The position numbers were made by a program, and so were the translations under genes. Below the pieces are notes generated by a model. That model saw nothing but the letters and a program-made list of their open reading frames with translations. It had not been told where the DNA came from and ran no database searches. Below, one piece after another: positions 3,051 to 7,235 of a stretch of DNA of 44,643 nt; positions within the stretch are counted from its first letter, which is position 1, and the number at the start of each line of letters is the position of its first letter. Source of the stretch: an uncultured Bacteroidota bacterium (GTDB lineage: Bacteria > Bacteroidota > Bacteroidia > Flavobacteriales > Flavobacteriaceae); the NCBI GenBank assembly GCA_902594745.1, contig CACJNF010000008.1:1-44643 (forward strand). Direction: 5' to 3'.

Positions 3051-3710
3051 ATGAAAAGATTTATAATTACATCTATAATTTTACTAACATCTTGTGATAT
3101 AAGTTCACAAAGAGCAATTGACAATCCTCAGCCAGTCAATCAAATTGATAATAAAAGCTATGACGGTATGAGTAGGGCTTACTTTGCATCTGGATGTTTC
3201 TGGTGTGTTGAAACAATTTACGAAAGTTTAGATGGAGTTAAAGAAGTTTACTCAGGTTATGCAGGTGGTTCAACAGTTAATCCAAATTATTACCAGGTTA
3301 TTTCAGGTAAAACAGGACACGCTGAGGCTATAGAAATAATCTACGATAGTCAGATAATCTCTTATGACACCCTTCTAAAGGTCTTCTTTGACTCTCATGA
3401 TCCTACAACACCAAATAGGCAAGGCCCAGACTATGGAACTCAATATAGATCGATAGCTTTTTACTCAAATATTGATGAAAGAATTAAAATTAAAAACTAT
3501 ATAGATTTACTATCTTCAAATTCAATTTTTGGAAAAAAAATCATTACTGAGGTTAAAGAGATAATTAAATTTTATTATGCAGAGGATTATCACCAAGACT
3601 TTGAAAAAAAGAATCCATACAGTCCTTATATTCAAAGTGTTTCAATACCTAGATTTAATCGATTTAAGCAAAAAGCATCTAATTACATAAAAATAAAGGA
3701 TAACCATTAG
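3051..3710 (+). CDS. msrA: peptide methionine sulfoxide reductase MsrA, lipoprotein form
   Basis: Reduces methionine-S-sulfoxide in proteins. The catalytic motif SGCFWCVE is clear, at about residues 46-52, followed by the family signatures YAGG, GHAEAIEI, FFDSHDPTTPNRQGPDYGTQYRS and YYAEDYHQDF. The N-terminus MKRFIITSIILLTSC is a lipoprotein signal with the acylated cysteine at residue 15, so the enzyme probably acts in the periplasm or at the outer face of a membrane, not in the cytoplasm. A linker of about 25 residues leads to the catalytic domain. No MsrB domain is fused. It has its own promoter. Confidence 0.95.
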   Translation: MKRFIITSIILLTSCDISSQRAIDNPQPVNQIDNKSYDGMSRAYFASGCFWCVETIYESLDGVKEVYSGYAGGSTVNPNYYQVISGKTGHAEAIEIIYDSQIISYDTLLKVFFDSHDPTTPNRQGPDYGTQYRSIAFYSNIDERIKIKNYIDLLSSNSIFGKKIITEVKEIIKFYYAEDYHQDFEKKNPYSPYIQSVSIPRFNRFKQKASNYIKIKDNH

Positions 3711-4972: not shown

Positions 4973-5731
4973 ATGCCAGTTAAAACTTATAGTAAGAATA
5001 ATCAAGCAAATGGTAATTTTAATGGAGGTGAAATTCTTGAAAAAAAACCTATAGGATTTCCACAGGATCAAGGTATATTAAAACCTTACTCAAATTTGTT
5101 TTACTGGGCTCACGCTTGGGCTCCACAAAATGACAGTATTATAGGTCTTCATCCTCATCGAGGTTTTGAGATATGTAGTTTTGTTTTAAAGGGGGAAATT
5201 GAACATTATGACACTCTTTTGGATAAGTGGATAACTCTTAAAGAAGGGGATGTTCAAGTTATTAAAGCAGGTAAAGGAATATCTCATTCAGAAAAATTAA
5301 AAAAAGGTTCTGAAATATTTCAAATATGGTTTGATCCTAACCTTCATGTTTCATTATACGAAGAAGCAAACTATAGTGACTACAAATCAGAGATCTTTTC
5401 GATTAAAAAAGAGGACGGAAAGGAAACTAAAATTATTTCAGACATTAATAATCAAATAGATTTAAAATCTGATTCAATCCAAATTTACCAGCATTCATTC
5501 ACTAAGGGTATATACAGCCATGAGATAAGTCAGGATAGATTCCACTCAATCTTCATCCAACATGGTATACTAAAAATAAATGATGAAACTTATAATTCTG
5601 GAGATTTCTTAATAGTTGATAGTGAGGTTTTGCTAAGTATCGAAATAATTTCAGACTCAAAAGTATTTGAAATTACTTCACTAATTGAACTTCCATATAA
5701 AACATATGCTGAAATGCACAACATTAGTTGA
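4973..5731 (+). CDS. pirin family protein (bicupin)
   Basis: A cytosolic cupin of about 252 residues. The N-terminal pirin domain shows the conserved metal-binding set: FYWAHAWAP, GLHPHRGFEICSFVLKGEIEHYD (two His plus Glu-type ligands) and VIKAGKGISHSEKL, then FQIWFDP. The C-terminal cupin is less conserved. Related bacterial pirins bind iron and some have quercetinase activity; the substrate here is unknown. The ATG follows an A/T-rich leader. The gene is the last of the plus-strand run beginning with msrA, and hairpins at 5780-5812 and 5847-5869 could end its transcript. Confidence 0.9.
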   Translation: MPVKTYSKNNQANGNFNGGEILEKKPIGFPQDQGILKPYSNLFYWAHAWAPQNDSIIGLHPHRGFEICSFVLKGEIEHYDTLLDKWITLKEGDVQVIKAGKGISHSEKLKKGSEIFQIWFDPNLHVSLYEEANYSDYKSEIFSIKKEDGKETKIISDINNQIDLKSDSIQIYQHSFTKGIYSHEISQDRFHSIFIQHGILKINDETYNSGDFLIVDSEVLLSIEIISDSKVFEITSLIELPYKTYAEMHNIS

Positions 5732-5779
5732 CTGTAATTAGTTTTAATATTATACTTGAAAATTAGTTTTATAAAATTC

Positions 5780-5812
5780 GAAAGCCTGACTCACTAGGTG
5801 CGCCAGGCTTTC
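5780..5812. terminator. GC-rich hairpin, probable bidirectional terminator
   Basis: GAAAGCCTG (5780-5788) pairs perfectly with CAGGCTTTC (5804-5812). The loop can close further through CAC and GTG. On the minus strand the stem is followed by GAATTTTAT, a weak U-tract, and on the plus strand by TAATTCTC. It would end pirin transcription from the left and any minus-strand transcript coming from 6115 or from the GC-enriched island. Confidence 0.6.
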
Positions 5813-5846
5813 TAATTCTCTACTCACGATTGAAATTATTTCAAAT

Positions 5847-5869
5847 AGTAGTTAATTTGACTACTTTTT
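5847..5869 (+). terminator. second hairpin with U-run after the pirin gene
   Basis: AGTAGT (5847-5852) pairs with ACTACT (5860-5865) across a 7-base loop and is followed directly by TTTT. This is a short plus-strand intrinsic-terminator shape, weaker than the hairpin at 5780-5812. Confidence 0.35.
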
Positions 5870-5884
5870 AATGTTTAGAGTTTT

Positions 5885-5945
5885 GTAAGCTTTATCTCTG
5901 CTTTCGCTTTGAACGTTACGGCGAATTTTTCCGTCCCTTTCACTT
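5885..5945. other. GC-enriched non-coding island, possible structured RNA
   Basis: This stretch is clearly richer in G and C than the AT-rich spacer around it and can fold locally (ACGG at 5918-5921 with CCGT at 5931-5934). It lies between hairpins at 5780-5812 and 5957-5994. Short frames on both strands are open across it but lack a usable start codon. I could not match it to tmRNA, RNase P RNA, SRP RNA or 6S RNA. A small RNA is possible but unproven. Confidence 0.25.
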
Positions 5946-5956
5946 ACTTATATAAA

Positions 5957-5994
5957 AGTAGAAAAATAATTGAGAAATACAAACTTTTTCTACT
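5957..5994 (-). terminator. 10-bp hairpin downstream of the cysteine-rich ORF
   Basis: AGTAGAAAAA (5957-5966) and TTTTTCTACT (5985-5994) form a perfect 10-bp stem around an 18-base loop. Read on the minus strand the stem runs into TTTATA, so it could terminate a transcript from the cysteine-rich ORF that ends at 6050. Confidence 0.4.
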
Positions 5995-6049
5995 AAATTG
6001 TTAATAACTTTTGGTAACATGCTGTTAATCAGTTATTTAATTTCATATT

Positions 6050-6115
6050 TTAACACTCACAGCATGTACATTCACATGAATTTTGACAGTTACACTTTAC
6101 ACAGTTGCAATCCAT
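6050..6115 (-). CDS. metallothionein-like cysteine-rich peptide, 21 residues
   Basis: ATG at 6115, TAA at 6050-6052, 21 codons. The peptide begins MDCNCVKCNC and has nine cysteines, at positions 3, 5, 8, 10, 14, 16, 18, 19 and 21, forming C-x-C, C-x-x-C and C-C patterns. The other residues are small or polar (Asp, Asn, Val, Lys, Gln, Ser, Glu, Thr), with no aromatic residue and no hydrophobic core. This is the composition of a copper- or zinc-thiolate peptide; the 25-residue Neurospora copper metallothionein is similar in scale and C-x-C spacing. An in-frame stop lies five codons upstream, so the ATG is the only start. The leader is A-rich, as elsewhere in the window, and a possible -7 box TATCTTAG lies at 6139-6146. 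Metal binding is inference from composition. Confidence 0.55.
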   Translation of the reverse strand: MDCNCVKCNCQNSCECTCCEC

Positions 6116-6161
6116 TGTAATAATTTTTTAATTCATAACTAAGATAATTAAAATTTAAACT

Positions 6162-6207: not shown

Positions 6208-6280
6208 GGGCAATTAGTTCAACTGAATAGAACAGAAGATTACGGCTCTTCAGATGGGGGTTTGAGTCCTCCATTGCCCT
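6208..6280 (+). tRNA. tRNA-Arg, anticodon ACG
   Basis: A 73-nt cloverleaf. Acceptor GGGCAAT pairs with ATTGCCC, discriminator T at 6280; D stem GTTC/GAAC; anticodon stem GAAGA/TCTTC around loop TTACGGC, giving anticodon ACG (wobble A, presumably edited to inosine); variable loop AGAT; T stem GGGGG/CCTCC with loop TTTGAGT. No CCA is encoded. The D loop AACTGAATA lacks the usual GG: position 19 is A and T-loop position 56 is T, so the normal G19-C56 pair is replaced by A19-U56. A15 faces U48, an allowed Levitt pair. All five stems pair, so the gene looks functional. The promoter box just upstream and a gene start 7 nt downstream suggest a tRNA-mRNA co-transcript. Confidence 0.9.
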
Positions 6281-6287
6281 CTAAATT

Positions 6288-7235
6288 TTGATTTTGGATT
6301 TTTTAGGTATTTTATTTGGTATTATTCTTCTGTCTCATGGTGGTGATATACTTACAAAATCTTCCGTTGACTTATCATTAAAATTTTCTGTTCCTAAAAT
6401 TATAATTGGCATGACAGTTGTCTCATTTGCTACATCTGCACCCGAGCTTATCGTCAGTTTAAATGCAACTCTAAATGGGTTTTCAAATTTTGCTATAGGT
6501 AATGTAATAGGATCAAATATTGCCAATATTGGACTGGTTCTTGGAATAATAACAATAATATACCCCATTACTTTGCAACAAAGATTTTATTCTTCAGATT
6601 TTCCTATCCTAATGCTTTCAACATTTTTATTCTATATACTATTAATAACTGGTAGTAAAATATCTAGAGCTGAAGGTATTATTCTTCTTGTTTCAATTTC
6701 TCTGATACTTATATATTTATTTCTATATCAAAAGAAAAGTATTTCTGAGTTCTCAGATGTAGTTGATACATCTAAAATCTCTATCCCTAAATCAATTATT
6801 TATGTCTTATTTAGCGGATTGCTATTATGGCTTGGCTCAGAAACTTTAATAAAATCTGCCATTTCTGTAGCAAACAAATATGAGATATCTCAAAGAGTAA
6901 TAAGTGTAACAATGGTAGCTATTGGAACTAGTATCCCAGAATTAGCTGCATCTGTTGTAGCTTCAATAAAAAAACAAAATGATCTTTCAATAGGTAATCT
7001 TATTGGATCTAATATATTTAATCTTCTGGTAGTGATTGGAATTACATCTACTGTACTACCAATTGAACAAATTGACTCTAAAATTATATTTAATGATATG
7101 TTGTGGGTAATCCTTTTCTCAGCTATAATTCTTCCATTAGCTTATTTGAAAAGAAGAAATATTCTGACAAGAAAAAAAGGGATTATTCTATTAACATTAT
7201 ATTTAATTTTTATAATCCCTTTAATACTTAGTTAA
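6288..7235 (+). CDS. CaCA-family Ca2+/Na+ exchanger (YrbG-like)
   Basis: An inner-membrane cation exchanger with about ten transmembrane helices. The two inverted alpha-repeats are plain: GMTVVSFATSAPELIVSLNA with GNVIGSNIANIGLVLG in the first half, and TMVAIGTSIPELAASVVAS with GNLIGSNIFNLLVVIG in the second. Each carries the conserved acidic residue of the ion site (the Glu of PEL). Length 315 residues is usual. No ATG is available: the frame has a TAA at 6282-6284, two bases after the tRNA, and the first internal ATG would remove helix one, so translation must begin at TTG 6288 or TTG 6294. Expression is probably tied to the tRNA promoter. Confidence 0.9.
   Translation: MILDFLGILFGIILLSHGGDILTKSSVDLSLKFSVPKIIIGMTVVSFATSAPELIVSLNATLNGFSNFAIGNVIGSNIANIGLVLGIITIIYPITLQQRFYSSDFPILMLSTFLFYILLITGSKISRAEGIILLVSISLILIYLFLYQKKSISEFSDVVDTSKISIPKSIIYVLFSGLLLWLGSETLIKSAISVANKYEISQRVISVTMVAIGTSIPELAASVVASIKKQNDLSIGNLIGSNIFNLLVVIGITSTVLPIEQIDSKIIFNDMLWVILFSAIILPLAYLKRRNILTRKKGIILLTLYLIFIIPLILS

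Follow-up and report, generated by a model that had tools for sequence, protein, structure and literature searches.

On the minus strand of a contig from an uncultured Bacteroidota bacterium lies a gene of only 21 codons whose product, MDCNCVKCNCQNSCECTCCEC, carries cysteine at nine of its 21 residues. This is a genuine gene, selected at the protein level, and we regard it as probable that the product is a one-cluster micro-metallothionein of marine Bacteroidota and phages, a reading in which metal binding, expression and benefit are inferred. The window referred to throughout is the whole stretch of DNA analyzed, 44,643 nucleotides in length. The gene and the features around it are as follows:

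4973 to 5731, plus strand: gene of the pirin family, oriented convergently to the peptide gene
5957 to 5994, minus strand: hairpin proposed earlier; weak fold, without visible conservation in the alignment
5995 to 6011, minus strand: conserved element AAAGTTATTAACAATTT, 38 nt past the peptide stop, present as a single copy in the window
6050 to 6115, minus strand: peptide gene, 21 codons and stop, nine-cysteine and micro-metallothionein-like, with frame and nine cysteines in 18 of 18 genomes
6139 to 6146, minus strand: possible −7 promoter box TATCTTAG, an exact or near match in the five closest genomes only
6208 to 6281, plus strand: tRNA-Arg(ACG), adjoining the peptide gene
6288 to 7235, plus strand: gene of the sodium/calcium exchanger family on the far side of the tRNA, on the strand opposite to the peptide gene

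Re-reading the sequence reproduced the gene as originally predicted, including its coordinates, strand, sequence, nine cysteines, ATG and TAA stop, together with the in-frame stop claimed five codons upstream of the ATG. The cysteines stand at positions 3, 5, 8, 10, 14, 16, 18, 19 and 21, forming the array C-x-C-x2-C-x-C-x3-C-x-C-x-C-C-x-C. The window contains a single instance of this nine-cysteine-plus-stop pattern, and 100 dinucleotide shuffles of it contain none.

The locus was sought across the genus with flanking DNA as the query, and hence without presupposing the cysteines. Of 25 genus genomes, 21 gave a match somewhere, and 18, the window's own included, have a contig that spans the site. 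All 18 keep the 21 codons, the stop and the nine cysteines, and 17 keep the ATG, so the gene passed the check for start codon, cysteines and frame in close relatives that had been set for it; a profile search of the genus was positive in the same 18 of 25 genomes. In one 93%-identical relative (G008, also recovered as L158), ATA replaces ATG and the remainder of the peptide is intact, which may reflect a rare start codon, a recent loss or a sequencing error. Mean pairwise mismatch in the genus alignment is 0.197, 0.153 and 0.440 at the first, second and third codon positions, such that third positions diverge at two to three times the rate of the other two, and the third base of cysteine codons alone has a mean pairwise mismatch of 0.362. 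TGT and TGC are both used at each of the nine cysteine codons, a result in which the constancy of cysteine itself stems partly from how the hits were selected. Positions other than cysteine are variable, with pN/pS about 0.68. Because frame, stop and nine cysteines persist in 18 of 18 genomes while third codon positions change faster, we conclude that a protein is what is being selected.

The peptide was not found in seven genus genomes, whose assemblies are 54 to 87% complete. In none of them does a DNA match extend over the tRNA-Arg portion of the query, and a search for the exchanger protein, run without a positive control, matched in 0 of 7. A missing peptide in such assemblies cannot be distinguished from an assembly gap, and nothing can hence be inferred about loss. 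In one genome (G004), the contig breaks off inside the conserved element, a little before the peptide gene is reached, leaving the element at the contig edge. A short match in another (G016) falls within an unrelated gene and was rejected as chance.

Of the 18 genus genomes, 17 agree exactly in the first 15 bases of the downstream element AAAGTTATTAACAATTT, and the element lies 25 to 41 nt from the peptide stop in the 17 of 18 in which this was measured (G010 was left out). The two regulatory features of the original prediction found poor support. The proposed promoter box is one base away from the Bacteroidota −7 motif TAnnTTTG and, in the genus alignment, is exact in three genomes and nearly so in two, these being the five closest. 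The proposed downstream hairpin is only slightly more stable than its shuffles (z score −1.78, 10 of 200 shuffles being equally stable) and has no conservation by eye, and no consensus terminator was found in it. Further downstream, minus-strand positions 5765–5950 form a block whose conservation is visible by eye in part of the genus. Its fold is more stable than those of all 200 shuffles (z −4.29), and it ends with a strong terminator-like hairpin, AAAGCCTG...CAGGCTTTC. It matched no Rfam family and may be an unknown small RNA or belong to the transcript of the peptide gene as its 3′ part. Across the window, Rfam returned only the tRNA above threshold, and the sub-threshold matches look like chance.

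Cellular copies outside the genus are rare. A scan of the genomes of 84,980 species with the nine-cysteine pattern returned 46 stretches, of which 23 represent the short peptide (one with an ATA start), with the genus itself accounting for 17 and other sources for six; the other 23 were dropped as longer cysteine-rich or broken frames. The outside records comprise four of other Bacteroidota, namely an uncultured Bacteroidetes, AG-390-M23, where the gene adjoins tRNA-Val (L166), Flavobacteriaceae NAT254 and NAT161 (L174 and L178) and Cytophagales PW7 (L177); one labeled Rhodothermaeota MED-G19 (L194); and a phage contig within a flavobacterial MAG (L172), whose neighboring genes match those of peptide-carrying viral loci. 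Profile searches were positive in 3 of 199 genomes of the family (the window's own, one of the same genus and G028) and, for the order and the phylum, in 1 of 395 each, the own genome only. Neighborhoods vary among the outside loci and differ from the window, with no constant neighbor across cellular loci, and the conserved unit is therefore the peptide rather than the locus. A small lipoprotein-like gene without a Pfam match adjoins the peptide in both NAT254 and NAT161. The copies in the window and in AG-390-M23 adjoin tRNA genes, and an apparent tRNA 3′ end at the contig start of the NAT161 locus was recognized by reading only and was not called by ARAGORN. tRNA genes are typical entry points of mobile DNA.

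Very similar peptides are also carried by numerous uncultured bacterial viruses, and with at least 110 viral loci in addition to the six outside-genus records the range of the family exceeds what had been guessed from sequence alone. The first of two pattern scans of IMG/VR gave mostly trinucleotide repeats or broken frames, leading to a stricter second pattern. Together, at least 211 loci were fetched, of which at least 110 have a clean ORF, defined by an ATG, nine cysteines and a stop at the last cysteine or no more than three codons past it; the other 101 were dropped as repeats, as broken or longer frames, or, for L260, because the contig ends before the start codon. The number of viral loci given here is a minimum. 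In a scan of the TGC-first subset, 45 of 55 loci were clean, and the TGC-first share of 17 of 94 distinct cores gives a very rough extrapolation to about 250 viral loci.

The viral loci encode at least 88 distinct peptides, which, among the matches listed, are 20 to 24 residues long with one of 36, and whose commonest residues spell MKCNCKVCNCGTSCDCTCCNC. Among these same matches, glycine follows the fourth cysteine in 71 of 88 distinct peptides, serine stands two residues beyond that glycine in 70 of 88, and the stop comes immediately after the last cysteine in 105 of 110 loci, the remainder falling within the three codons allowed by the filter. The 36-residue version (L103, 795–905, minus strand) has an extra CNCENCKC segment, of the form C-x-C-x-x-C-x-C, before the standard array, a possible domain extension.

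Among the matches listed, 65 of 110 loci have a cluster of phage replication, packaging or tail genes no farther than 6 kb away, a number that rises to 79 if the cluster of an FAD-dependent dehydrogenase is also counted, leaving 31 with neither in the stretch seen; a T4-type terminase cluster is nearby in 28 of 110, and no neighbor cluster exceeds 53 of 110. The single terminase compared (L076) is nearest to that of Flavobacterium phage immuto (60% identity) and then to that of a phage recorded from Microcystis elabens (53%). The gene is tightly packed behind other genes: of the 104 listed loci with an upstream frame, 90 have a same-strand frame ending between −14 and +32 nt from the peptide start, 14 of these with a 4-base overlap. 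A Shine-Dalgarno-like motif stands before the start in 2 of 110 viral loci among the matches listed and before none of the 22 genome-scan starts (the phage contig L172 included), and the viral leaders, again among the matches listed, are 54% A. Starts without a Shine-Dalgarno motif and with an A-rich leader are a habit of Bacteroidota, and on this basis the phage hosts are likely, but not proven, to be Bacteroidota.

The FAD-dependent dehydrogenase (phrog_12409) lies downstream in 41 of 110 carriers among the matches listed (e.g., L229, L217 and L263). Its N terminus gives a Pyr_redox_2 match below cut-off, genes for a small protein and an AAA_28 ATPase frequently come next, and in named phages the dehydrogenase has only distant relatives, with no more than 29% identity. 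A tblastn search with a 21-residue member against 50,697 phage records found nothing, which is not evidence of absence, since a query of this kind is probably masked as low complexity. Flavobacterium phage immuto 13-6C and Microcystis phage Mel-JY01, the isolates whose terminases are nearest, gave no profile match in a search without a known-match control, and no short cysteine-rich frame was present in the 25-kb stretches of the two. Named phages likewise gave no megablast match to two of the viral loci.

Because the search pattern demanded nine cysteines, their constancy among its matches proves nothing, and eight-cysteine variants were for this reason sought in the viral collection. These scans covered three of the nine positions, replacement codons starting with A, C or G, and TAA or TAG stops; replacement by Ser TCN, Tyr, Phe or Trp and the other six positions fell outside them. 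No variant was found that had lost the cysteine at position 5 (with a pattern of the last seven cysteines only) or at position 19, and a single one had lost that at position 18 (L342, MCECKNCKCNESCGCGNCNC), set against 45 clean nine-cysteine loci in the TGC-first subset alone. The genus loci, which were found via their flanks, keep cysteine at all nine positions. Within the positions and codons tested, the nine-cysteine array is thus a near-invariant unit, which is what a metal cluster would require.

No family in the libraries searched accounts for the peptide. There was no match in NCBIfam for the 17 members scanned, none in PHROGs for 46 members, and none of significance in Pfam for the same number, the best being plant Metallothio_2 (E 0.54, in 5 of 46); a PDB search returned wheat Ec-1 alone, without significance (E 5.2). 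The prokaryotic metallothionein family PF02069 (Metallothio_Pro) matched none of 46 members at E values up to 10, a test of low power at 21 residues. The absence of a library family is probably due to a length below the floor of gene callers and to low-complexity masking. PF02069 was likewise found in 0 of the 25 genus genomes, which are incomplete assemblies, in a search whose 14 control genomes included Synechococcus elongatus as a positive; within the limits of such assemblies, the nine-cysteine peptide is the only metallothionein-like gene found in the genus. Among the matches listed, 2 of 111 distinct peptides contain a histidine or aromatic residue, as does 1 of 11 additional ones, and histidine itself is present in only 1 of 111.

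Metallothioneins of the PF02069 type have about nine cysteines plus histidine ligands in some 50 or more residues, whereas in the broad sense the name covers very small proteins with at least about 20 to 30% cysteine, in C-x-C or C-C steps, and few or no aromatics and histidines. The narrow definition is not met: nine cysteines are present, but in 20 to 24 residues (36 in one case) with histidine nearly absent. The broad compositional criteria are met. Of the original description as metallothionein-like, composition, near-invariance and number of thiols, and scarcity of histidine and aromatics hold, while metal binding remains only an inference. By composition the peptide should act as a metallothionein does, but by the tests applied it lies outside the known bacterial family. 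No report of a phage-encoded metallothionein or of this nine-cysteine peptide was found among the open-access PMC matches listed; in the portion available of a phage paper that mentions metallothionein, the word falls in a section on a bacterial genome (PMC3974807).

From the nine thiolates, the scarcity of histidine and aromatics and the lack of a hydrophobic core, we propose a stand-alone micro-metallothionein for Zn, Cd or Cu(I), the identity of the metal being itself inferred. The odd number of cysteines without a hydrophobic core would, judged from sequence, point to metal rather than disulfides. A stand-alone micro-gene would give rise to a peptide of 20 to 24 residues which, having no signal sequence, is presumably cytosolic. 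The nine cysteines would wrap a single metal-thiolate cluster, of about M3Cys9 with Zn or Cd or about six Cu(I), and the peptide would act as a one-domain metallothionein that buffers or sequesters soft metal ions; it could also serve as a thiol sink. In phages, probably of Bacteroidota, it may regulate metals or the redox state in infected cells, with protection of thiol chemistry, supply of zinc to virion or replication proteins, and control of host metal as options among which none is favored. In small marine Bacteroidota it is a separate gene, possibly exchanged with phages, a transfer that we infer.

A metal-binding peptide could, however, serve a regulatory or structural partner, for example by delivering zinc to or removing it from one protein, instead of acting as a bulk buffer. 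The tight placement behind phage genes in the 90 of 104 loci listed would fit such a role, and the viral G-x-S between the fourth and fifth cysteines could be an interaction feature. We consider it a minor possibility, given that the non-cysteine positions vary (pN/pS about 0.68) and that no cellular neighbor is constant and no viral one reaches beyond 53 of the 110 loci listed. Against the micro-metallothionein reading itself stand the lack of a significant match to any metallothionein family, the ATA start of G008 and the rarity of cellular copies outside the genus. In addition, no soft-metal transporter, sensor or chaperone was recognized among the eight window neighbors searched with Pfam, among the 45 of 346 viral neighbor clusters viewed by eye, or among sixteen phage-neighbor representatives (some from the same clusters) compared with Pfam or PHROGs.

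So short a frame with such dense cysteine codons could also be a leader peptide (attenuator) that senses the supply of cysteine or cysteinyl-tRNA and controls a downstream gene, for which the dehydrogenase, at 100 to 126 nt in 25 of its 41 occurrences among the 110 viral loci listed, would be a candidate. This is very unlikely. From the peptide gene to position 3124 the minus strand has no frame of 60 codons or more, only frames of 22 to 44 codons; the next gene in the window, encoding the pirin, is convergent, leaving no same-strand gene to regulate; and downstream genes vary between phages and hosts. A leader, moreover, needs cysteine codons, not fixed spacing, and loss of a single cysteine is nearly unseen at the three positions tested. 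A RiPP precursor, disulfide-rich toxin or bacteriocin, also expected to be short, cysteine-rich and variable between cysteines, is highly improbable, with neither maturase nor exporter turning up when eight window neighbors were searched with Pfam (two of them without any family match), no signal sequence or leader segment, and an odd number of cysteines. That there is no protein at all, only a chance frame within a conserved RNA or DNA element, can practically be dismissed: the surrounding intergenic DNA is partly conserved in the genus too, but the mismatch gradient across codon positions, the use of both TGT and TGC at every cysteine codon, the stop directly after the last cysteine in 105 of the 110 viral loci listed, and similar peptides encoded at unrelated loci all contradict it.

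Should the micro-metallothionein bind metal, it would set how short a natural metallothionein can be, offer an easily synthesized model for an isolated nine-thiolate cluster, and add metal management to the functions that phages bring to infected ocean bacteria. A bolder version, which remains tentative and which we hold somewhat doubtful, would rank it as the smallest metallothionein so far seen to be encoded by a gene, consisting of one stand-alone M3Cys9 unit. It would serve T4-like phages of marine Bacteroidota as an auxiliary gene that re-tunes zinc or copper in infected cells, and small-genome Bacteroidota would have kept a copy as their only metallothionein.

Several known metallothioneins offer points of comparison. 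The Neurospora-type copper metallothionein, a fungal protein of 25 residues with seven cysteines at fixed spacing and a Cu(I)6 cluster, resembles the peptide in size and in its C-N-C-G-x-x-C-x-C-x-x-C run, and its C-x-N-C step is shared with the eight-cysteine variant L342; the peptide has nine cysteines instead of seven, however, and the first gap is wider in Neurospora. With bacterial SmtA the peptide shares an opening C-x-C-x-x-C-x-C. Compared with SmtA, BmtA and PflQ2MT, on the other hand, the peptide is about one third to one half as long, has almost no histidine and a different spacing after the fourth cysteine, and is probably too short for their zinc-finger fold. The nine cysteines of PflQ2MT from P. 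fluorescens serve one cluster, as Zn3Cys9His or Cd4Cys9His (PMC7387436), and a single cluster of nine cysteines is what we infer for the peptide. M3Cys9 and Zn3Cys9 domains with nine thiolates are described for metallothioneins (PMC10612145), and the peptide is like those of animal metallothioneins and wheat Ec-1 in placing nine thiolates in one short segment. With Ec-1 it also has a short C-x-C-G-x-x-C-x-C similarity, not significant as found in the PDB search. The M3Cys9 units of animal metallothioneins and Ec-1 are, in contrast, domains of longer proteins.
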